From NCBI GenBank assembly GCA_002070105.1, contig MWCQ01000017.1, forward strand, positions 1 through 53,755: 53,755 nt of DNA. Direction: 5' to 3'. Of the stretch, positions 37,903 to 51,370 are shown piece by piece. The notes under the pieces were generated by a model. That model had not been told where the DNA came from. It did not search any database and saw only the letters and a list, made by a program, of their open reading frames with translations. Source of the stretch: Firmicutes bacterium ADurb.Bin193. Its GTDB lineage: Bacteria > Bacillota > Clostridia > Monoglobales > Firm-18. Within the stretch, counting starts at the first letter, position 1. Every line of letters starts with the position of its first letter. A program made the position numbers and the translations under genes.

Positions 37903-38033
37903 GATTTAATTATATCTGCTAAAAATATTACCGCTAAATTGTATTAAAAAGTCAGAATAATATGCGAAAAAGTTACACCCCCCTTGAATTACGCCGAATT
38001 GTATCAAAAGTAGGGTGATGATACAAATAAGTA

Positions 38034-38072
38034 CTCCAACTTTGATACAATTTTTTCAAAGTTGGAGTTTTT
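38034..38072 (+). terminator. Rho-independent terminator 1 after the propeller gene
   Basis: CTCCAACTTTGA pairs perfectly with TCAAAGTTGGAG (12 bp stem, 10-base loop), followed by TTTTT. It ends plus-strand transcription of the envelope region. Confidence 0.8.
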
Positions 38073-39786: not shown

Positions 39787-42700
39787 TTGAATGTAGATTA
39801 CAAAATAGAAAAGTGGAAAAATAAACTGCTTGATTTAGGAAAAAGAAACAGACTTATTAACTATCGTGATACAAAACGCTCAAACTTACGCATAATAAAT
39901 CCCGATATATTCACTTTATGGGAAAGCTTTGTTGTAAACGAAGAACCTATAATATTTCCATATATCGAAGATGATATTGAAGATGATGAACAATTTGATC
40001 ATTTTGCTGGAAGTTTGAAAAACGGTGTAAGTACTAATCAATCTCCAAAGGAGCAACAGAAAACTCTTCGTAACATTCGCGAAAAGGCAAAGACTGTATT
40101 AGAAGAACAGGGCGTGAATGTATTATATCTTGCGTTTGGCTTCTTAAAATGGTTTGAAAGCGACCATTCGAGTCAGCCATTACTGTCCCCTCTTATCCTT
40201 GTGCCAGTTTCTATAACATGGGAATCTATAATCTCTCCGTTTGTTTTAAGCCTTTACGAAGATGAGATTCTATTAAATCCTACACTATCTTATAAATTAG
40301 AACAAGATTTTGGCATAAAACTACCTGTATTTAATTCAGATAATAACCTTCAATCATTTTTTAATGAATTACAAGATACAATCAAAGGAAATGAATGGGA
40401 CGTTATAATGGAAACAGGCCTAAGTTTATTTTCATTCCTTAAAATAAATATGTATAATGACTTGGAAAAGCATAAAGATATAATTTGTCAAAATCCAATT
40501 GTAAGAGCTCTTTGTGGGGACTCGTCAGCCTTAAGTTTTGATTTTCTAAAAGAAATTAATGAATACGATCATGATAAATTATCAAAACCAACAGATTCTT
40601 TTCTTGTTGTTGATGCTGATTCAAGTCAGCAAGATGCCATATTATGCGCAAAAAAAGGCGTTAGTTTTGTATTACAAGGCCCCCTGGAACAGGTAAAAGC
40701 CAAACTATTACCAATATTATTGCAGAATGCATTGCAAATGGGAAGAAAGTTTTATTTGTATCCGAGAAAATGGCTGCGCTTGAAGTTGTTCATAAGCGGT
40801 TAGTTGAAGCTGGACTGGGCAATTTCTGTCTTACGCTACATAGTTATAAAGCAAATAAAAAAGATATTCTTGAGCAGCTAAGAGTTTCTTTAAATTTATC
40901 CCAAAAAAAAGCTGAGTTGAGTGATGAGGCATATCAAAAGCTCAGTAGGTTGAAAACAATTCGTGATGAGTTAAATGATTATGCGAAAGAAATATATTCA
41001 AAGGTAGCTCCCTTAAATAAGTCAATATATGAAGTGAATGGTTATTTGGCAAATCTGCAGGAGTATAAAGATGTAATATTCCACATTAATGATGTAGCAA
41101 ACACCACACCCGAACAATTTGATGAATATATTATTTTGCTTCGGAATTTTTCTAATACAATTGGTAAAATGACTGATAGTTATAAAAGCAATCCATGGTA
41201 TGGTTCAAATGTGCCGAATGTCACCTTTGAACTTAGGCATGATATTAATGCAAATTTAAAAATATTGATTCCTCAAGTTTTGGATTTGGCAAAAGTATTT
41301 AATTCAATTGTCGAGACGACTCATTTAAACATTGAATTATCCTATAATGGCATTAAAGATGCTATTGAGATACTAAAATGTGCTTCCGCTTCGCCTATTG
41401 TACCTTCGTCATGGATTATCGAAGGAAGTCTTGATCCAATATACGAGGAGCTCAATAACTCGGAGCAGACGATGAAAGTATTTTCAAATGCTGTTTCGGA
41501 GCTTTCATCATATTATTCAGACATACAAGAATTAGATTGTCATTGGAGTTTTAATTCATGCTCGGAAATAACGACAATATATGATGCTCATACACATTTA
41601 GGCTACATCAATCAAATTATAGAAACTGACAGTTGTTATTCCAAGTGGGATAAAATAGATGACATAAATGCAGTTAAAACTATATATGAGCAATTCAAAG
41701 CCAAAGTTACTGAATATACTGCATGCCGTACAAAAATATTATCGAGATACGAAAAGGAAATATTGACAATTGACCATGCAAGTATGCTTTCTCGATTTAA
41801 AGCAGATTATACCTCTATTTTAAAGTTCTTTAATCATCAATATAGAATTGATAAAAAATTAATTAAAACGTTAAGTATAGAGGTAAGAAAAAGGATTGAT
41901 GATTTATCGATTATTAATCTCTTAATAGAACTGCGCCGTCTTTCCGAACTTGAACAGTGGCTCAAGGAAAATGAGAATTCGTTAATAGAATTTTTTGGCG
42001 AGCGATACAAAGGTTTTAATACTGATTTTAATGATATTCAAATAGCAATTAGCATTTTTGACAAAATCAGACTTTGCAGAATTAAGCTTAAAGACATTAC
42101 AAGTATCTTGGAACAAATTGATTCATCGGAAAGCAGACTAAAAAAATTGTTTGACCATCTATATAAAGGAGTACAGACAGATTGGGAATATATTCGAAAT
42201 GCTTTAGTTTGGGCTAGAGAATTTAGAGAGATAGTTAGAAGGCATAAGATCAATCAGACTTTTATTGAAAGTGTTTGTACGGATCAGCAAATAGTACTTT
42301 CGTGCTCCGAGTTTGAAAACCGTTTGTGTGAAAAGTACAATGCAATTCAACAGCGCTTTGAATGGTATGTGAAACTTTTTGATGATGACCAGCAATTCAA
42401 ATTTGTAAATCTGTTAGATTTAGTAGAAAGAATAAAACGTTGTTTAAACGGTCATGCTCTGCTTGAGGAATGGATTGATTACAGATCTGCAAGAGAAAGT
42501 TGTGCAAAGATTGGACTTGAAGACTACATTAACCAGATTGAATCGATAAATATAGATAAGGATGAAATCGAACCAATCTTTAAAAAACGGTTTTACAGAT
42601 TATGGCTTGATGCCATATTGCCACAATATCCTGCAGTCATGAATTTTAGACGCAAAACACATGAAAACATGATTAATGAATTTGCCAAACTTGATAAGCT

Positions 42701-44795
42701 TCAATTCGAAATAGGAAAAGCTCGCATACAACAACTTCTAATTAATAATCTTCCTTCACTTGATCGTTTCACAAGTGGTTCCGATGAACTAAGCATATTA
42801 AAGCGAGAAATTAGGAAACAAAGGAAGATTATGCCTATCCGTAAATTATTCAAGGAGATACCCAATTTACTGCTCACATTGAAACCATGCCTTATGATGT
42901 CACCTCTTTCTGTGAGTGTGTTTTTAGAAGCGGAAAGCTATTCTTTTGACACTATTATATTTGACGAAGCTTCACAAATATGTACTGAAAATGCAATAGG
43001 TGCAATTGCACGCGGCAAACAAGTTATTATTGCAGGCGATAGTAAACAATTGCCACCAACGAACTTTTTTGCTTCTACAACATCAGATACAGATTTTGAT
43101 GTTGAAGATGATAATAATTATGATGATGCCGATGCTTATGAATCTTTATTAGATGAAGCAATGTTATTACCGGAGCGCACACTTTTATGGCATTATAGAA
43201 GCAGGCATGAACACCTTATAGCGTTCTCAAATGCTAAGATATATCACAATAATTTGATTACTTTTCCTTCGTGCATTGAAAAAATACCGGATATTGGCGT
43301 TGAGTATGTTTACGTCAAAGATGGTTATTATGATCGCGGTGGGAAAAAAGGCAATCCCATTGAAGCAAGGCGTGTGGCTCAACTTGTTTTTGAGCATTTC
43401 CGCAAAAATCCTAACCGCTCTTTAGGAGTTATAGCCTTCGGTGAGGTGCAGCAACAAGCTATTGATGCTGCTGTTCGTCATATGCGTATGAAAAATCAAA
43501 GTTTTGAACCATTTTTTAGAGAAGACAAGGAAGAACCATTTTTTATAAAAAGTCTAGAAAATGTTCAAGGCGATGAAAGAGATACTATAATATTTAGTAT
43601 AGGCTATGCAAAGGATTTAAGAGGAAAGATGAGTATGCATTTTGGACCATTAAGCAAAGTGGGAGGCGAACGCAGGTTAAATGTTGCAATCACTCGCGCA
43701 AAATATAATGTAAAATTAGTCGGATCAGTTATGCCTACTGATCTTGTCACTGAAAGAATTAGTGCAGAAGGGCCTAAACTTCTTCGTTCATACATTGATT
43801 TTGCTATAAATGGTCCATCATCAATATTAAGCGAGGCAACGGAGAACGATTTAGCGCAGCATGATTCTCCATTTGAAGCTGCAGTTTATAATTTCTTGGA
43901 TCGTAAAGGTTATAAACTAGGAACTCGGGTGGGCTGTTCTGGTTATAGGATTGATATAGCCGTAAAACATCCATCTCTGGATGGTCGATATGTATTGGGT
44001 ATTGAATGTGATGGTGCTTCTTACCATGCTTCTCGAACAGCTCGCGAAAGAGACAGACTGCGTCAGGAAGTTTTGGAAAATATGGGATGGCGTATATATC
44101 GCATATGGTCAACTGACTGGATAAAAGATCCTATTTCTGAGGGCGAAAAGCTTATTCAAGCAGTTGAGGAAGCAATAAATGAGTACTCGGAGACTCTGTC
44201 TGTCGATTCCGTTTCGGAGGAAAATGTGGCTTCAGGAAATCTTCTTATTATTGATACAAAAGATAAACTAGACAATCCGTATGGATTTATAAAATATGAG
44301 CCTGTGAACTTTGATAATCTGCCGAAAAAAGATGGTTTTTTGGATGTCTGTGATTGTATTATGGCCATCGTTGAAAATGATTTCCCTATCCATTATGAAT
44401 TGCTTTGCCAAAAGATTGCCCCCTTATATGGTAATCAAAAGGCAACTGTAGCAATTAGGAGAGAAGTAGATTATGGGTTAAGAAAACTGAAAGGAAATAT
44501 CATAAGAAAGGGTGAATTTTTATATCCTTGTAGTAATTATCAAATTATTGTTAAGACTCCGAATACTCGTAAAATTGAACATATTAGTACGGAAGAGCTT
44601 GCTCAGGCAATGCTAATTATTGCAAGTAAATGTGTTGGTAGTACGGCAGACTACTTAATTGTAGAAACGGCCAGAGCATATGGCTTTTTCCGTACGGGAG
44701 AAAAAATTCGGAACGCCATGCAGGAGGCATTATCTATACTTATTAGTGATGGTAGGGTGATTGAGAAAGAAGGCAAAATCATTATTAACAGCTAG
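39787..44795 (+). pseudogene. Giant DUF4011/DUF3320 SF1 helicase-nuclease, frameshifted in Walker A
   Basis: One gene of about 1,670 codons read in two frames: 39787-40803 (TTG start after TTGGAGGT) and on to 44795. It opens with DUF4011 (WKNKLLDLGKRNRLINYRD). At 40680-40684 only five C residues occur; one more would give QGPPGTGKSQTITNII, the Walker A motif, and join both frames. The 3' part has the Walker B TIIFDEASQICTENA, GDSKQLPPTNFF, QGDERDTIIFSIG and RRLNVAITRAK motifs of UPF1-like SF1 helicases. Then come an MTES_1575/Vsr-type endonuclease domain (GIECDGASYHASRTARERDR, WRIYRIWSTDW) and DUF3320 at the end. Such proteins occur in defence islands. Either a true mutation, a homopolymer error or slippage explains the break. 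Confidence 0.88.
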
Positions 44796-45155: not shown

Positions 45156-45722
45156 TTAAATTAAATTTATCAAATATTTATCATAGGAAAACTTACGCTG
45201 ATGAAGGGTGATAAGGTTGTCGAGTTGTTTAAAGAAAATACCAATTTGAGTTTGTTCGGTCACATCCTTGGGTAATGAAATGTCAATATCAAAGAAATCT
45301 TCTGCTGAAATATTTAGTAAGCCATGGTTTCTTGCACCCTCGGCAGCACGCTCAGCAATACCCTTATGCCATCTGTCCGTATCAAAGAAAACTGTTAAAA
45401 AATCAGAGTTGATTTTCATCAAGTCCTTTGGGGCAAAAACTATATAAAGCGTTGATAATACACCTTTTTCATATAAATCAAGCCGTTTTACGGCTCCATA
45501 TGGATACCCGTCGGAAGTGCTTTTGTTATAAGCAAATTCACCATTCAGCACCAAGTAGTAATTACTTATATCGCGACTGGCAACGCGGTTATTGAAGTAT
45601 GTGATTTGGTCAACTAAACCGTATTGGGCCGAAATAGTCAGCGGCAATGTTGACTCATTATTGGTGTTTTTACGAACAACTCTTTCAACGAGTTCCCCCA
45701 ACTTACGCTGTTCCCAAGCAAT
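45156..45722 (-). pseudogene. hsdS: Orphan half of a type I specificity subunit (one target-recognition domain)
   Basis: About 188 codons with exactly one target-recognition unit: it opens at AWEQRKLGELVERV, continues YGLVDQITYFNNRVASRDISNYY and closes with FFKQLDNLITLHQRK, the conserved repeats that bound each half of HsdS. The second half is missing, and no proper start codon or ribosome site precedes it (a TTG at 45758 is the only option). It is opposite to hsdM and head to head with an XRE gene. In known systems such half genes are silent cassettes swapped into an active hsdS by recombination. Here it may be a cassette or debris of an inversion. Confidence 0.8.
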
Positions 45723-45744
45723 TGTATTTTTTATGCAAAACCTC

Positions 45745-45773
45745 TTGAGTTTTTGCAAGCAAAATGCTATAAT
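45745..45773 (+). promoter_or_regulatory. Sigma-A promoter for the XRE gene upstream of hsdM
   Basis: TTGAGT (45745-45750), 17 bases, TATAAT (45768-45773), directly before the XRE gene. It overlaps the region where the hsdS fragment would need its start, so the fragment is unlikely to be expressed from its own promoter. Confidence 0.7.
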
Positions 45774-45804
45774 AAAGTCATATAAGTGCAAGGGAGATGC
45801 GTGA

Positions 45805-46035
45805 ATGGATATTTCAAGTGAAATAAAACTAATACGCCAAAAAGCTTTTATGACACAGGAAAATTTTGCAAAAGAACTGAATGTTTCCTTTTCGACTGTA
45901 AACCGTTGGGAAACTGGAAAAACACTCCCTAATATATCAGCTATGAAGCAAATTAAAATTTTCTGTGACAAAAACAACATTTCCTTTAAAGAGCTTCAGA
46001 ATGCATGGCTTAGCAAGGCAAAGGAAAAAAGGTGA
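45805..46035 (+). CDS. XRE-family regulator near hsdM
   Basis: 76 residues, one HTH_3 domain: EIKLIRQKAFMTQENFAKEL, then NVSFSTVNRWETGKTLPNI and a helical end. AGGGAGATG lies upstream of the ATG. Single-domain regulators of this kind often precede type I restriction-modification operons and may control hsdM expression (143 bases downstream, same strand). Confidence 0.85.
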   Translation: MDISSEIKLIRQKAFMTQENFAKELNVSFSTVNRWETGKTLPNISAMKQIKIFCDKNNISFKELQNAWLSKAKEKR

Positions 46036-46177: not shown

Positions 46178-46882
46178 ATGAACAAGCAACGGCTTGCCTC
46201 GAAAATCTGGGAATCAGCAAACAAAATGCGCTCCAAGATTGAAGCAAATGAATATAAAGATTATATACTCGGATTTATTTTCTACAAATTTCTTTCGGAC
46301 AAAGAAGTTAAATACCTTAAGGAAAATGACTGGACAGAAGAAGATATTAAACAATATCTAAATGAAGAAGATAGTGAAACCGTCTTAACTATCCAACGTA
46401 ATTTAGGTTATTTTATTGCATATGAGAATTTGTTCTCAACATGGCTGGACATGAGCAATGATTTCAATGTATCCAATGTTCGTGATGCTTTATCTGCTTT
46501 TAACCGGCTTATTGATTCTTCGCACAAAAAGGTTTTTGAAAAAATATTTGACACCCTGCAGACCGGCCTTTCCAAACTTGGTGACAGCTCCGGTAGCCAG
46601 ACAAAAGCTATCAGCGACTTAATTCACCTGATTAAAGATATTCCTATGGACGGCAAACAGGACTATGATGTTCTTGGGTTTATCTATGAGTATTTGATTT
46701 CCAACTTTGCTGCAAACGCAGGAAAAAAAGCCGGTGAATTCTATACGCCCCATGAAGTGTCGGTTCTAATGTCTGAAATCGTCGCAGAGCATTTGAAGGA
46801 CAGAACAGAAATTAAAATTTATGATATAAAAACACCGAGATTGATACAATTTAATTATTCCTACAGCCGTTTTGCCGCTTGA
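46178..46882 (+). pseudogene. hsdM: Type I methyltransferase subunit, truncated by prophage insertion
   Basis: The first 216 residues are a typical HsdM N-terminal helical domain (LASKIWESANKMRSKIEANE, YKDYILGFIFYKFLSDKEV) ending with KKAGEFYTPHEVSVLMSEIV and EIKIYD. In intact HsdM the next residues are the SAM-binding DPTSGSGSL motif and later NPPY. Here, after the GAT at 46823-46825, unrelated sequence adds 18 residues and a stop. The methyltransferase core is therefore absent. The ribosome site ATGGAGGA is intact. The junction coincides with the left end of prophage B, so the rest of hsdM is expected beyond the right edge. Confidence 0.9.
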
Positions 46883-46912
46883 GGGGTAAGTTGGCGTTTG
46901 AGGGGTAAGTTG
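46881..46912. repeat. Tandem GAGGGGTAAGTTG repeat at the prophage B left end
   Basis: Two copies of GAGGGGTAAGTTG (46881-46893, 46900-46912) in a 19-base period, about 55 bases inside the hsdM junction. A short hairpin (AGTCGGG/CCCGGCT plus T-run, about 46916-46940) follows. The repeats could be integrase or accessory-factor sites of the attachment region. Confidence 0.45.
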
Positions 46913-46956
46913 TGGAAGTCGGGGTGTCCCGGCTGTTTTTATAGGAGGTATTTAAC

Positions 46957-47823
46957 ATGTCTGGAGGAACAAAGCAACAATTCAAGCAGTTTAGTATTAC
47001 CTCTGCCGAAGATGCATGTCTTGTGTTGGGAATGCTAATTTCCGGGATGACTGTCAATCTTGAAAAATATAAGGAGTATGCGTCTGAGGCAGAATCCTTA
47101 TTGGAAAGCACCCAAGAAGAATATGTTCCCGCTAAAGAATATGATGATGTTAATGATAAGCTCCTTTATAGGCAGCGTGAGATTCTGAAATTTACAGCGG
47201 ATCATCAGAGCAGTTCTTTTTCATACATAGATCTACGCAAGATTCTGGAGAAACACAAGTATATTTTATCACCACTCTCAGAAGAAGTGTCAGCAATTCT
47301 CTCTGAATTTCTCGATGTGCGAAATTGGACCTTTCACAAGCCACAGTCATTAATGGTAGCTGCTAAAGAAGCGGCCCATAAAGACATCCCTGATGAGTTG
47401 AAGGAGATTGCTCAAGTAACGCCACAATTAAATCCGGTACTTATACGAAAAATCTGTCGGTACGAATTAGTCATGCTTGCCTCACTTACGATTCATGCGC
47501 AAAAACGCATAGAACAGTTTGAGAAAGTTCTTAGAAGCATGAAAGCCGACTACCAAGAAATATATGATTCCATTGAGAATAAGCCCTTCCTAATGACCAC
47601 TCACGGATTTTCAGACAGAGTACAATATGTTGAATTGAATGCTACCTCTGGTTTGTCGGATTATCATAGCGACATCGCCCAGATATCAATGGCAATTCAA
47701 AAATCAAAATATGATGGCTCAGATGAAAAGTTTAATGATTGGGTTGTAAGGCTGGATGGCGAAAAATCTTGCTGTGATAGTACACTTACGGAGGACCCTC
47801 AAAATGAAGCAAATCACAAATAA
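46957..47823 (+). CDS. Protein with HEPN-like RNxxxH motif, prophage B edge
   Basis: 288 residues after a good ribosome site (TAGGAGGT). No family recognised. It is almost entirely helical. At residues 122-127 RNWTFH fits the catalytic Rx4-6H (RNxxxH) signature of HEPN ribonucleases, in the context SEFLDVRNWTFHKPQ. Other helices (LVMLASLTIHAQKRIEQFEKV) suit a HEPN-type bundle. It overlaps a 61-residue gene by 20 bases. Its place between the attachment end and the integrases is typical for phage cargo genes, often superinfection exclusion or toxin genes. Ribonuclease activity is an inference from one motif. Confidence 0.6.
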   Translation: MSGGTKQQFKQFSITSAEDACLVLGMLISGMTVNLEKYKEYASEAESLLESTQEEYVPAKEYDDVNDKLLYRQREILKFTADHQSSSFSYIDLRKILEKHKYILSPLSEEVSAILSEFLDVRNWTFHKPQSLMVAAKEAAHKDIPDELKEIAQVTPQLNPVLIRKICRYELVMLASLTIHAQKRIEQFEKVLRSMKADYQEIYDSIENKPFLMTTHGFSDRVQYVELNATSGLSDYHSDIAQISMAIQKSKYDGSDEKFNDWVVRLDGEKSCCDSTLTEDPQNEANHK

Positions 47824-47989
47824 GGAATACGAAGAGTGGCAGAAATACAAAGCTGAGAAGGCAAAGGGACATGTCCTGCTGCCGGATACCGTCCGGTTCA
47901 TCTGCGAGGCCAACGGCTATGATGCCGAGAAGATCGGTCAGCACTTCCTTGAAATCCTGCCAAAGATCTGTCCACCTGAAGAGAGATAA
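47804..47989 (+). CDS. Small partner protein of the HEPN-like gene
   Basis: 61 residues from ATG at 47804 with CGGAGGACC upstream, overlapping the previous stop by 20 bases. Sequence is charged at the start (KQITNKEYEEWQKYKAEKA) and ends with EKIGQHFLEILPKICPPEE. No family recognised. Size and overlap fit an antitoxin or regulator of the preceding protein. GC content rises here, marking the change to prophage-type composition. Confidence 0.55.
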   Translation: MKQITNKEYEEWQKYKAEKAKGHVLLPDTVRFICEANGYDAEKIGQHFLEILPKICPPEER

Positions 47990-48041: not shown

Positions 48042-49613
48042 TTATGCTTTGATCTCTGTGCCGTCCTTGAAGGTTACCCGGATGTCTTTTTTGCTGTGGA
48101 CTGTGATGAAATCAACCATCGCCAGCCAGTCTGTTTCCCGGAACTCCGTCAGCGGCTCCCGGTTCCGTAGCTCATTCAGATAGGATTCGATCTGGTGCTT
48201 TCGTGCCATGCGCTCGGCAATCAGGTCGGTGACCTCGGTGTGTCTGGCCTTGGCCTTATCGAACCGAGACACCAGACCGTCGTACCGTTTCTGGTATTCG
48301 GCCTGATCGAGGGCAACGTGAGCGTTTTCTTTGATGCACTCCTCGATGAGCTCAGCAGCGATGTTGATTTCAGCTTCCAGATCCGAAAGCTCACTTTCAA
48401 GGGCTGTGGTATCGAGACTCCTTGAAAGGACCTGCTCGTATATGGCTATAAACTGTTCCTTCTGGTCGATCACCTGATTGGCTGCCCGGAGGAACAGTTC
48501 TTTTATTTCATCCTCGGTGAGCGTCGGTGTGGCGCATTTCTTACCTTCAAACTTATGATTGCATTGCCAGATGACCTTCCGGTAGGCGTCGTTGCTGTGC
48601 CAGACCTTCGGGCCGTACCAGCTGCCGCAGTCGCCGCACTTGACCTTGCTGGAGAAAATACTGACCGAGCTCTTGCGGTTCCGGCCCTTTTTGCGGGTGG
48701 CCATCAAGGTCTGCACCATCTCGAAGGTCTCCGGATCGATAATGGCCTCATGATTATCCTTGACATAGTACTGCGGGATTTCGCCCTCGTTGGCCTTTTT
48801 CTTCTTGGTCAAGAAATCGACCGTGAAGGTCTTCTGCAACAGCGCATCGCCCTTGTACTTTTCGTTCGTGAGGATGCTCTTGATGTTGCTGGGGTTCCAG
48901 TGGTCCTTCCCACCGGGTGAAGGAATGCCTTCTTCGGTCAGCGTCCGGGCAATCTGAAACGGCGACTGACCTTGCAGGAACATTCCATAGATGCGTTTGA
49001 CCAGCTTGGCCTGTTCCGGGTTCACCACGAGGTTGTGGTCAGGCCCCATGTCGTAGCCCAGAAACCGATTGAACGGGACTGTGACCTTGCCGTCTGCAAA
49101 ACGTTTCCTCTGGCCCCATGTGCAGTTCTCGGAAATGGATCTGGACTCCTCCTGTGCCAGCGAGGACATGATTGTGAGCAGCAGCTCGCCCTTTCCATCG
49201 AAGGTCCAGATGTTTTCTTTCTCAAAATAGCACTCCACGTTGTGTTCCTTCAGGGAGCGGATGGTGGTAAGGCTGTCAACCGTGTTTCTGGCAAAACGGC
49301 TGACCGACTTTGTGATGATCAGGTCGATCTTCCCGGCGAGGGCGTCGGCCACCATGCTTTTGAAGCCCTCACGCTTTTTGGTGTTCGTCCCGGTGATGCC
49401 TTCGTCTGTATAGACACCGGCGAACTCCCAATCGTCCCGTCCTTGGATGTAGTTGGTATAGTAATCGACCTGCGCTTCGTAGCTGGTCAGCTGCTCCTCG
49501 TTGTCGGTGCTGACACGAGCGTAGGCCGCCACACGTCGCTTCTTGGTGCTGTTGATCGGTGCCGCCGTGAAGCGTGACAGCGTCGCCGGTATCGTGGTTA
49601 CGGATTTGGCCAT
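48042..49613 (-). CDS. Large serine recombinase, downstream copy
   Basis: 523 residues. Resolvase catalytic domain at about 25-170 (RRVAAYARVSTDNEEQL with the nucleophile serine, TDEGITGTNTKKREGF, SVSRFARNTVD, SLAQEESRSIS). Then a recombinase domain (FNRFLGYDMG, WNPSNIKSILTNEKYKGD) and zinc ribbon (VKCGDCGSWYG...WQCNHKFEGKKC, about 325-365), and a coiled-coil region (LESELSDLEAEINIAAELI, about 420-480). This is the full plan of large serine integrases, which join attP and attB without host factors. It overlaps the next recombinase by 16 bases. Confidence 0.95.
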   Translation of the reverse strand: MAKSVTTIPATLSRFTAAPINSTKKRRVAAYARVSTDNEEQLTSYEAQVDYYTNYIQGRDDWEFAGVYTDEGITGTNTKKREGFKSMVADALAGKIDLIITKSVSRFARNTVDSLTTIRSLKEHNVECYFEKENIWTFDGKGELLLTIMSSLAQEESRSISENCTWGQRKRFADGKVTVPFNRFLGYDMGPDHNLVVNPEQAKLVKRIYGMFLQGQSPFQIARTLTEEGIPSPGGKDHWNPSNIKSILTNEKYKGDALLQKTFTVDFLTKKKKANEGEIPQYYVKDNHEAIIDPETFEMVQTLMATRKKGRNRKSSVSIFSSKVKCGDCGSWYGPKVWHSNDAYRKVIWQCNHKFEGKKCATPTLTEDEIKELFLRAANQVIDQKEQFIAIYEQVLSRSLDTTALESELSDLEAEINIAAELIEECIKENAHVALDQAEYQKRYDGLVSRFDKAKARHTEVTDLIAERMARKHQIESYLNELRNREPLTEFRETDWLAMVDFITVHSKKDIRVTFKDGTEIKA

Positions 49614-51370
49614 TTCTTTTCGCTCCTTATTTTCTTGATTCTCTCACTCATTGCCTCCCTGCGCTCGTCTGTCCAAGCGGCCTTCATGGATTCTCTGGCT
49701 TTTTCTCGCCGTTCCTCGGTCCAAGGAGTGCCGTGCCGCTTATCCAAGAAGTCTCTGGATTCGGTATGGCCGTCCCGGAAATGGAATGTAACCGTGTGGT
49801 CGAGGATGGTAGCGTTTTCAATCTGGGCGTCCATCGCAGCCTCATCGAACTCGTCAAGGCCGAGAACGTCGCTCACCAGCCGCTTCATGGTCTCGTCCCG
49901 GATGCCGGGGTTATGGCACCGATCCTTCGGGCCGGTACAGTACCAAGACCGTGTCGGAGTGCCGTCCTTGCGCTTTCCGGATTGGCAGCGATAATTGGCA
50001 CCGCAGCAGCCGCATTTTATGAAGCCGGTGAACTCGTAGAACAGATGCTTGTTGGGATTGGTGTCCTTGCGCTTATGCCGTTCTCCCCAGAGCCTTCTGC
50101 GCTCGTCCGTCCACCAGTCTGTCTTAGCGGTTGACTGCCATTTGGTCGTGACCTCGTGACCGTCGTAAAAGCGGAAGGTCAAGGTGTCGTCTCCGATGAC
50201 GATGACCTCCTCAATCTGCTGACTGAAGGCGTCCTCATCAAACTTGTCAAGGCCCAGCACCTCTGCCGTGGTGTTCTGGAGCATTTTCTCCGGTATGTTT
50301 TTTGATGGGCAAGCCGTCGCACCTTTCTGGCTTTTTGTCTGGCAGGTCCAAACGTAATAAACCTCACCGGCGGTGTTCCGTTTCCCGCTGTGGCGGTAGT
50401 GTTTTCCGCAGCAGCCGCAGGTGATCTTGGTGGAGAAAGCCGAGAGCTTCAGCGACTTGTTTCCGAAGGGGCCAAGGTCCCGTCTGCGCTTGAACTCGGC
50501 CTGTACCGCTTGCCATTCGTCCATCGGGATAATCGCCTCGTGGGTGTCCTCGACGAAATACTGCGGCATCTCACCATAATTCTTTCTGCGGTGTTTCGTG
50601 ATCGGGTCTTCGCAGTATTCCTTCTGGAAAAGCATGTTCCCGGTGTAGGTAATGTTCGTCAGGATGACCTTCACATTGGAATCCACCCACGGCTTTCCCT
50701 GCCGGGTATAAATGCCTCGGTCCATCAAGGCCCTGCCGATCTCAATTCGGGATGCGCCTTTCATGTACTCTGCGTACATCCATCGAATGATCTCGGCTTC
50801 CTCTGGAACGATGACCAGTTTGTCGTCCTGCCACTCATACCCGAAAATGCTGAACTTGCCGTTGGGGATGCCCTGCTTGAACCGCTTGATCATGGCCCAG
50901 CGCACGTTCTCGGAAATGCTGTGGCTTTCTTCCTGAGCGAAAGAAGCGAGGATGGAAAGCATCAGCTCTCCGTCGCCGCTTAAGGAATTGATGTTTTCCT
51001 TCTCGAAGCGCACCTCAATGCCGAGATCTTTCAGGTGCCGGACCGTGTTCAGAAGATCCACGGTGTTCCTCGCAAACCGCTGGATTGACTTGGTGAGGAT
51101 GATGTCGATGTTTCCAGCTTCACACTCAGCCAGCATGCGGTTGAACTCATCACGCTTTTTGGTGCCGGTGCCGGAGATCCCGTAATCTGCAAAAACGCCA
51201 GCGTATTCCCATTCGGGGTTCTTCTGGATCAGTGTGCTGTAATAGCTCACCTGTGCAGAAAGCGAGTGCTGCATCCGCTCGGATTCCATCGACACTCTGG
51301 CATAGGCAGCGACTCGCTTTCTTGTTTTCAGAACCGGCAGTTTTCGCTCGATTTTCTCTACTGTTTTCAA
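49598..51370 (-). CDS. Large serine recombinase, upstream copy with two zinc ribbons
   Basis: 590 residues. Catalytic domain about 15-165 (KRVAAYARVSMESERMQ with serine, ADYGISGTGTKKRDEF, SIQRFARNTVDLLNTV). The recombinase domain follows (GYEWQDDKLVIVPEEA, VDSNVKVILTNITYTGN). Two zinc ribbons are visible, TCGCCGKHYRH...TCQTKSQKG (about 315-345) and KCGCCGANYRC...YCTGPKDRC (about 445-480), instead of the usual one. Each is followed by an NTTAEVLGLDKFDED or VSDVLGLDEFDEA segment, so the C-terminal part looks internally duplicated. The two recombinases probably act together in integration or excision of prophage B. Confidence 0.94.
   Translation of the reverse strand: MKTVEKIERKLPVLKTRKRVAAYARVSMESERMQHSLSAQVSYYSTLIQKNPEWEYAGVFADYGISGTGTKKRDEFNRMLAECEAGNIDIILTKSIQRFARNTVDLLNTVRHLKDLGIEVRFEKENINSLSGDGELMLSILASFAQEESHSISENVRWAMIKRFKQGIPNGKFSIFGYEWQDDKLVIVPEEAEIIRWMYAEYMKGASRIEIGRALMDRGIYTRQGKPWVDSNVKVILTNITYTGNMLFQKEYCEDPITKHRRKNYGEMPQYFVEDTHEAIIPMDEWQAVQAEFKRRRDLGPFGNKSLKLSAFSTKITCGCCGKHYRHSGKRNTAGEVYYVWTCQTKSQKGATACPSKNIPEKMLQNTTAEVLGLDKFDEDAFSQQIEEVIVIGDDTLTFRFYDGHEVTTKWQSTAKTDWWTDERRRLWGERHKRKDTNPNKHLFYEFTGFIKCGCCGANYRCQSGKRKDGTPTRSWYCTGPKDRCHNPGIRDETMKRLVSDVLGLDEFDEAAMDAQIENATILDHTVTFHFRDGHTESRDFLDKRHGTPWTEERREKARESMKAAWTDERREAMSERIKKIRSEKKWPNP

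Follow-up and report, generated by a model that had tools for sequence, protein, structure and literature searches.

The window examined here, the whole 53,755-nt contig MWCQ01000017.1 (C17) of Firmicutes bacterium ADurb.Bin193, carries towards its right end a truncated hsdM gene that runs directly into phage DNA (Table 1). The ORF at 46178-46882 (+) corresponds to the first quarter of HsdM, matching Pfam HsdM_N and, of N6_Mtase, no more than positions 2-52, and its profile match breaks off immediately ahead of SAM motif I. The native frame has its last base at 46822 (...EIKIY) and the following Asp codon, GAT at 46823-46825, can be read from the host or from the phage sequence. The initial annotation had placed the end of hsdM similarity at EIKIYD (46825), which is exact to the base, and the prophage DNA with recombinases that it described after the break was recovered as two serine recombinases and a GH25 lysin, with a phage DNA polymerase on a second contig (C3). 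The two recombinases have their full length and each carries Resolvase, Recombinase and Zn-ribbon domains, and the pair is kept in relatives wherever the contig reaches far enough. To name the ORF of about 61 aa next to them as a candidate directionality factor is only a guess.

Table 1. Features at the hsdM break and the left end of the prophage (window coordinates).
Feature	Coordinates	Strand	Basis or remark
hsdM 5′ part, 215 codons, MNKQRL...EIKIY	46178..46822	+	Pfam HsdM_N and N6_Mtase 2-52; rest on contig C3
GA core, present in attL as well as attR; bases 1 and 2 of the restored Asp codon	46823..46824	+	Comparison with C3 attR TTTATA-GA-CCCGACC
Phage-encoded tail of the truncated HsdM frame, DIKTPRLIQFNYSYSRFAA then stop	46823..46882	+	
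Phage half of attL, TATAAAAACACCGAGATTGATACAA	46825..46849	+	
288-aa ORF of unknown function, prophage left end	46957..47823	+	96-99% conserved in sister prophages
Small ORF (~61 aa) lying between 288-aa ORF and recombinase genes	47804..47989	+	No Pfam match
Large serine recombinase 1, 523 aa; Resolvase, Recombinase, Zn ribbon	48042..49613	-	
Large serine recombinase 2, 590 aa, two Zn-ribbon stretches	49598..51370	-	Overlaps recombinase 1
Small phage ORF, 171 aa	51590..52105	-	Sister-prophage homologue 138 aa
Phage lysin, GH25 and CW_7, at contig end	52141..53754	-	

A profile search of the strain's own genome (58 contigs, 2.63 Mb) located the complementary piece (N6_Mtase 47-308) on the minus strand of C3, where the junction ...GACAGCGTCTTTATA-GA-CCCGACCTCCGGCTCCGGC..., with GA at C3 positions 204480-204479, encodes DPTSGSGSLL. 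This remainder is open and stop-free, and it is followed by hsdS, a gene for a Fic protein, hsdR, a partial hsdS and a tyrosine recombinase. The hsdM remainder, hsdS and hsdR (the last identified from its translation) are adjacent and run in one direction, with fic between hsdS and hsdR, which is the layout of a type I restriction-modification operon. The two hsdM flanks are in register with GA as the sole bases in common, and joining the halves at GA gives an intact in-frame gene of 852 codons containing ...EIKIYDPTSGSGSLL..., with ...EIKIYDPTSGSGSLLINIGKS... as the restored junction stretch. Among the available genus and family genomes no empty hsdM site was found at the DNA level, and a protein search in the order was used instead. 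In a complete one-contig genome of the same order it returned an uninterrupted HsdM homologue of 857 aa that aligns colinearly through the junction (...EIEIYDSTSGSGSLLINIGKS...), with 70% identity over 1-852, so nothing was gained or lost there. The initial annotation had expected DPTSGSGSL to come next, and this begins the remainder on C3, beyond attR; the rest of hsdM, to be sought at the right end of the prophage, is therefore not missing from the genome, and the anticipated restoration of hsdM by excision holds in silico to the base.

The host side of the locus has peculiarities of its own. An inverted partial hsdS (45156-45980, minus strand; Methylase_S, one target-recognition half) lies upstream of hsdM, the partial hsdS and tyrosine recombinase lie downstream of hsdR (L008, 11049-17565), and the two target-recognition halves of the HsdS of this locus are almost identical. 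The type I locus formed by these two stretches looks like a specificity-shuffling system. Further to the left, the gene for a DUF4011/MTES_1575 helicase-nuclease (39787-44795) seems to be disrupted around 40770-40803 by a frameshift at the P-loop.

The window does not reach the prophage's right end; C3 carries it, from a phage DNA polymerase through attR. Pairing of C17 with C3 rests on the fit of the att ends, not on continuous sequence: direct comparison of the contig ends gave no overlap, and about 29 kb of the prophage middle (a size scaled on a sister prophage) is in neither contig. A search of the assembly with the sister-prophage DNA did not find this middle, returning mainly 63-76% identical pieces of other prophages (C12, C22 and the left part of the window) and a few short matches, and the sister-prophage tail protein had one match in the genome, at 29%. 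With the middle absent from the assembly, intactness of the prophage cannot be claimed.

Joined at GA, the phage ends give a 52-bp attP, TTGTATCAAAGACAGCGTCTTTATA-GA-TATAAAAACACCGAGATTGATACAA, which is an inverted repeat centred exactly on GA, with outer arms of 9 bp and inner arms TTTATA/TATAAA. Serine integrases are expected to use an attP of ~50 bp with inverted arms around a core, and the predicted site fits this expectation because of its length and of the inverted arms centred on a short core. The core common to attL and attR is very short (GA only, in register), the exchange is reciprocal, and it restores both hsdM and the mod gene of the sister prophage described below; the same GA core recurs there and in relatives. 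Naturally joined attP sites are present in relatives (e.g., L223, L252, L254, L259, L262, L274 and L288), with the same length and spacing and nearly always a GA core. They point to excised or free forms within the family, without indicating why excision takes place. Two arm sequences of this design are TTGATACAATTTAAT and CAAAGACAGCGTNTNNATAGA; a 16-bp short attP pattern was dropped as an IMG/VR query, being too unspecific.

The sister prophage resides in an isolate genome, Anaeromassilibacillus senegalensis An867, spanning 55,293 bp between att sites that are both on one 470-kb contig, and its recombinases are 96.8% and 97.5% identical to the window pair. Its insertion lies within a type III mod gene, which is broken at KCIYI^DPPFNTG (the caret marks the break point here and below). 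Restored at GA, this gene reads ...AGQIKCIYI^DPPFNTGQAFEHYDDN... (AGQIKCIYI^DPPFNTGQ), and the joined Mod protein matches PADLOC MTase_III (2.4e-135). The two prophages share 94% identity over the left 6.9 kb and 94.5% over the final 237 bp ahead of attR. Because An867 shows matching ends on one contig, the C17-C3 pairing is unlikely to be an assembly accident. The An867 counterpart of the missing ~29 kb holds holin, tail, capsid, portal, terminase, helicase and primase genes, as read from translations. Near attR of the prophage studied here lie two N4/N6 methyltransferases and a type II REase-like protein (PADLOC 1.9e-167), further candidate defence genes (PDC-S14, PDC-S02, PDC-M30A-like) and a radical SAM protein, and the right end of the An867 prophage has HsdM/S/R-like ORFs, an AAA ORF and McrBC-like ORFs (read by eye). 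Given this cargo at the two right ends, both prophages bring restriction-modification genes to a place where one gets broken. On C3, the phage right end (L009, 480-604) also provides a leader, MPEKAFSVCIKDSVFI, which continues in frame into the methyltransferase remainder; the same arm occurs in An867, and a strong hairpin with a T-tail lies ~80 bp away.

For a survey of attL sites, relatives found through their recombinases (IMG/VR and GTDB genomes) were searched for the phage arm, and two pattern scans were added. At ~27 loci the host methyltransferase frame stays open as far as the crossover, and its end falls directly before the motif I or DPPY Asp, or of a phage-altered codon (GAA). HsdM is broken at KIY^D, KVY^D, RVY^D or TLY^D, type III Mod at KMIYI^D, KCIYI^D or DVIYI^D, an MmeI-like IIG protein at LTFL^D and FTPDHI-type N6 methylases at KIL^D, RVF^D or RVL^D; a further break point, NIL^D, falls in a large protein resembling those of conjugative elements. 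Pfam or PADLOC profiles end at the break in 12 of the ~27 fragments, the others being assigned via motif resemblance, in some cases a short one (L015 had no profile match). Remainders on the attR side begin DPTSGSGS, DPPFNTG or DPACGSGNFL. The left half-sites have little in common beyond A at -9 (24 of 27) and A/T at -5, -3 and -2. Five loci with similar arms are exceptions or have uncertain hosts (L258, L246, L326, L331 and L332). A related group with the arm GTTTACATA-GA (L019, L022, L325, L328, L329, L330, L333 and L334) inserts into serine-recombinase genes of other elements at D-E/D-G-x-S-G (DEGISG/DDGFSG).

The prophage has no stable pairing with hsdM. Recombinase pairs 94-99% identical to that of the window sit in hsdM (the window itself), in an IIG/type I-like gene (L010) and in two different mod genes (L014, L213), and L013, with only recombinase 1 in reach, sits in another N6 methylase; at L047 and L253 identical recombinases accompany different methyltransferase genes. 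On a tree of 38 recombinases (the label of L021 was assigned by its arm alone), the type I, type III and IIG-like target labels change 7 times each, against shuffled means of 9.0, 7.4 and 6.6, respectively; serine-recombinase targets change twice, against a shuffled mean of 10.4 (0 of 500 shuffles). Since near-identical pairs occupy different methyltransferase genes and the labels of these change about as in shuffles, specificity is for the motif class and not for hsdM.

We consider it very probable that a temperate phage integrated here site-specifically (attP x attB) by means of paired serine recombinases that read methyltransferase motif DNA and are not dedicated to hsdM. The tandem recombinases, whichever of them acts, would catalyse the attP x attB exchange, with the hsdM stretch around the motif I Asp codon as attB and the crossover at the GA of that codon. 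The DNA they read would be weakly specified, similar among methyltransferase genes because it encodes the catalytic motif, and would correspond to the stretch coding for xxIY/F-D-P-x-x-G-x-G or IYI-D-P-P-Y/F. In the lysogen, HsdM is cut ahead of the SAM-binding motif and hsdS-fic-hsdR are separated from the start of the operon. HsdM lacking motif I does not bind SAM, and HsdR requires M and S, such that HsdR alone should be harmless. With HsdM deprived of motif I and hsdS-fic-hsdR cut off, type I modification and restriction should both be lost and the system switched off; because HsdR needs M and S, no self-cutting would be expected. Excision at GA, as predicted for this strain, would restore hsdM exactly.

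Tn1806-like ICEs are already known to insert themselves into hsdM and into further methyltransferase genes; their triple serine integrases target hsdM, snf2 and diverse methyltransferase genes, Eco57I-type ones included, with a reported GGGG repeat (PMC4701971, PMC12942858, PMC13006639); that their excision may serve the host was already suggested in PMC4701971. The two systems share tandem serine recombinases, insertion into hsdM or other methyltransferases, very short direct repeats and a truncated target. The element described here differs in its phage nature (a lysin, plus portal, terminase and tail genes in An867), in having two recombinases, here and in relatives, instead of three, in its GA core at the motif I/DPPY Asp codon instead of GGGG, and in also targeting mod and IIG genes. 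A conjugation module was not seen in the available prophage parts (the middle ~29 kb being missing), and a lysin and a DNA polymerase are present. The gut phages Ca. Heliusvirales (NatCom records PV0364xx) have recombinase pair, small ORFs, endolysin, holin and tail in the same order, at 65-71% DNA identity to the window prophage over the integration-lysis region, which was the part compared. In those records the recombinases are mostly not annotated as such, and the Heliusviridae paper (PMC9226167) makes no mention of an integrase or a methyltransferase. Searches of the open-access literature returned nothing useful on paired serine recombinases and no report of a phage family using the methyltransferase catalytic Asp codon as attB.

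Exact restoration at GA, intact recombinase ORFs and an intact hsdM remainder would suit a regulatory switch, as the initial annotation proposed for the type I system, in which a cue would drive non-lytic excision, restoring hsdM and toggling that system. The comparison would be with comK in Listeria: as cited in PMC4701971, its A118-type prophage also is a serine-integrase prophage that splits a host gene restored by precise excision, and the same paper raises the possibility that ICEs inserted in hsdM could excise at times when this gene is of use; the joined attP sites of relatives could be read likewise. In that citation, however, active lysogeny involves a dedicated host gene and excision shown to be regulated, whereas here the host gene varies between sisters and excision is a prediction. 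A switch shaped by co-evolution should stay with a single host gene, so the variable target (type III mod, IIG-like and other unrelated methyltransferase genes, for pairs 94-99% identical) argues against it; nor is there any sign here of a cue, a phage defect or reintegration. The proposed switch was accordingly not supported, and we regard it as very unlikely. An old prophage remnant, with hsdM lost for good, would account for the missing middle, but gaps of this kind are expected when related prophages share one genome, and full-length recombinases, symmetrical att arms and a stop-free hsdM remainder make such a dead insertion improbable, if less so than the switch. An assembly or binning artefact, by which the hsdM halves would come from different strains or a chimeric contig, might be suspected from the 58 contigs, the 4.77% contamination and the contig ends without overlap. 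That reading is hardly credible, given that the halves meet in frame at a single 2-bp core, that attP is palindromic and that the same design is contiguous in the isolate genome An867.

The broken targets belong to types I, III and IIG, whose restriction activity requires the interrupted polypeptide or the complex it forms; stand-alone type II methyltransferases, the loss of which would be lethal, may, we hypothesise, be avoided as targets. Disabling the host restriction-modification gene could then have been selected as such, the phage's own genes taking control of lysogen immunity and modification, and the choice of these types, the methyltransferases, REase-like protein and candidate defence genes at the prophage's own right end and the ORFs read by eye in An867 would agree with this. 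Restriction cargo is common in phages, however, the target could be merely a widespread, conserved and dispensable site, and close relatives use serine-recombinase genes instead, so that selection for such a swap seems rather unlikely. Slightly more plausible, and still tentative, is a gut phage family with integrases tuned to the methyltransferase catalytic motif, in which lysogeny always breaks one host restriction-modification gene, of any type available and non-lethally, and installs the phage's own system, and exit restores that of the host.

The rule of a crossover at the GA of the motif I/DPPY Asp codon predicts where the prophages of a whole gut group lie and which host defence system each of them disables, linking the choice of integration site to restriction-modification, and many methyltransferase genes recorded as truncated in assemblies may be explained by such insertions. 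The recombinases would be naturally multi-target enzymes of relaxed, measurable specificity, and the effect of lysogeny at such sites on methylation and phage immunity becomes directly testable.

Several more related prophages are present in the same genome (C12 2967-22419, C22, and C6 at 105-134 kb). The paired-recombinase prophage on C6 was rejected as a second methyltransferase insertion, its att-like repeat abutting a sequence that looks, by eye, like a tRNA gene. Another prophage of similar gene order occupies window positions 1-27900 and runs off the left contig end, with portal, TerL, C5 methyltransferase, primase and DNA pol A genes. Its right boundary was not found; it seems to end in type II restriction cargo (C5 methyltransferase, BanI-like enzyme, SNF2 helicase and NOV_C protein). 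An intergenic 52-bp att-like inverted repeat of the same design, with a CA core, TTGTATCAA-N16-CA-N16-TTGATACAA, was observed at window positions 37999-38050, and a similar CA-core repeat lies at position 612 of L317, upstream of an intact hsdM.
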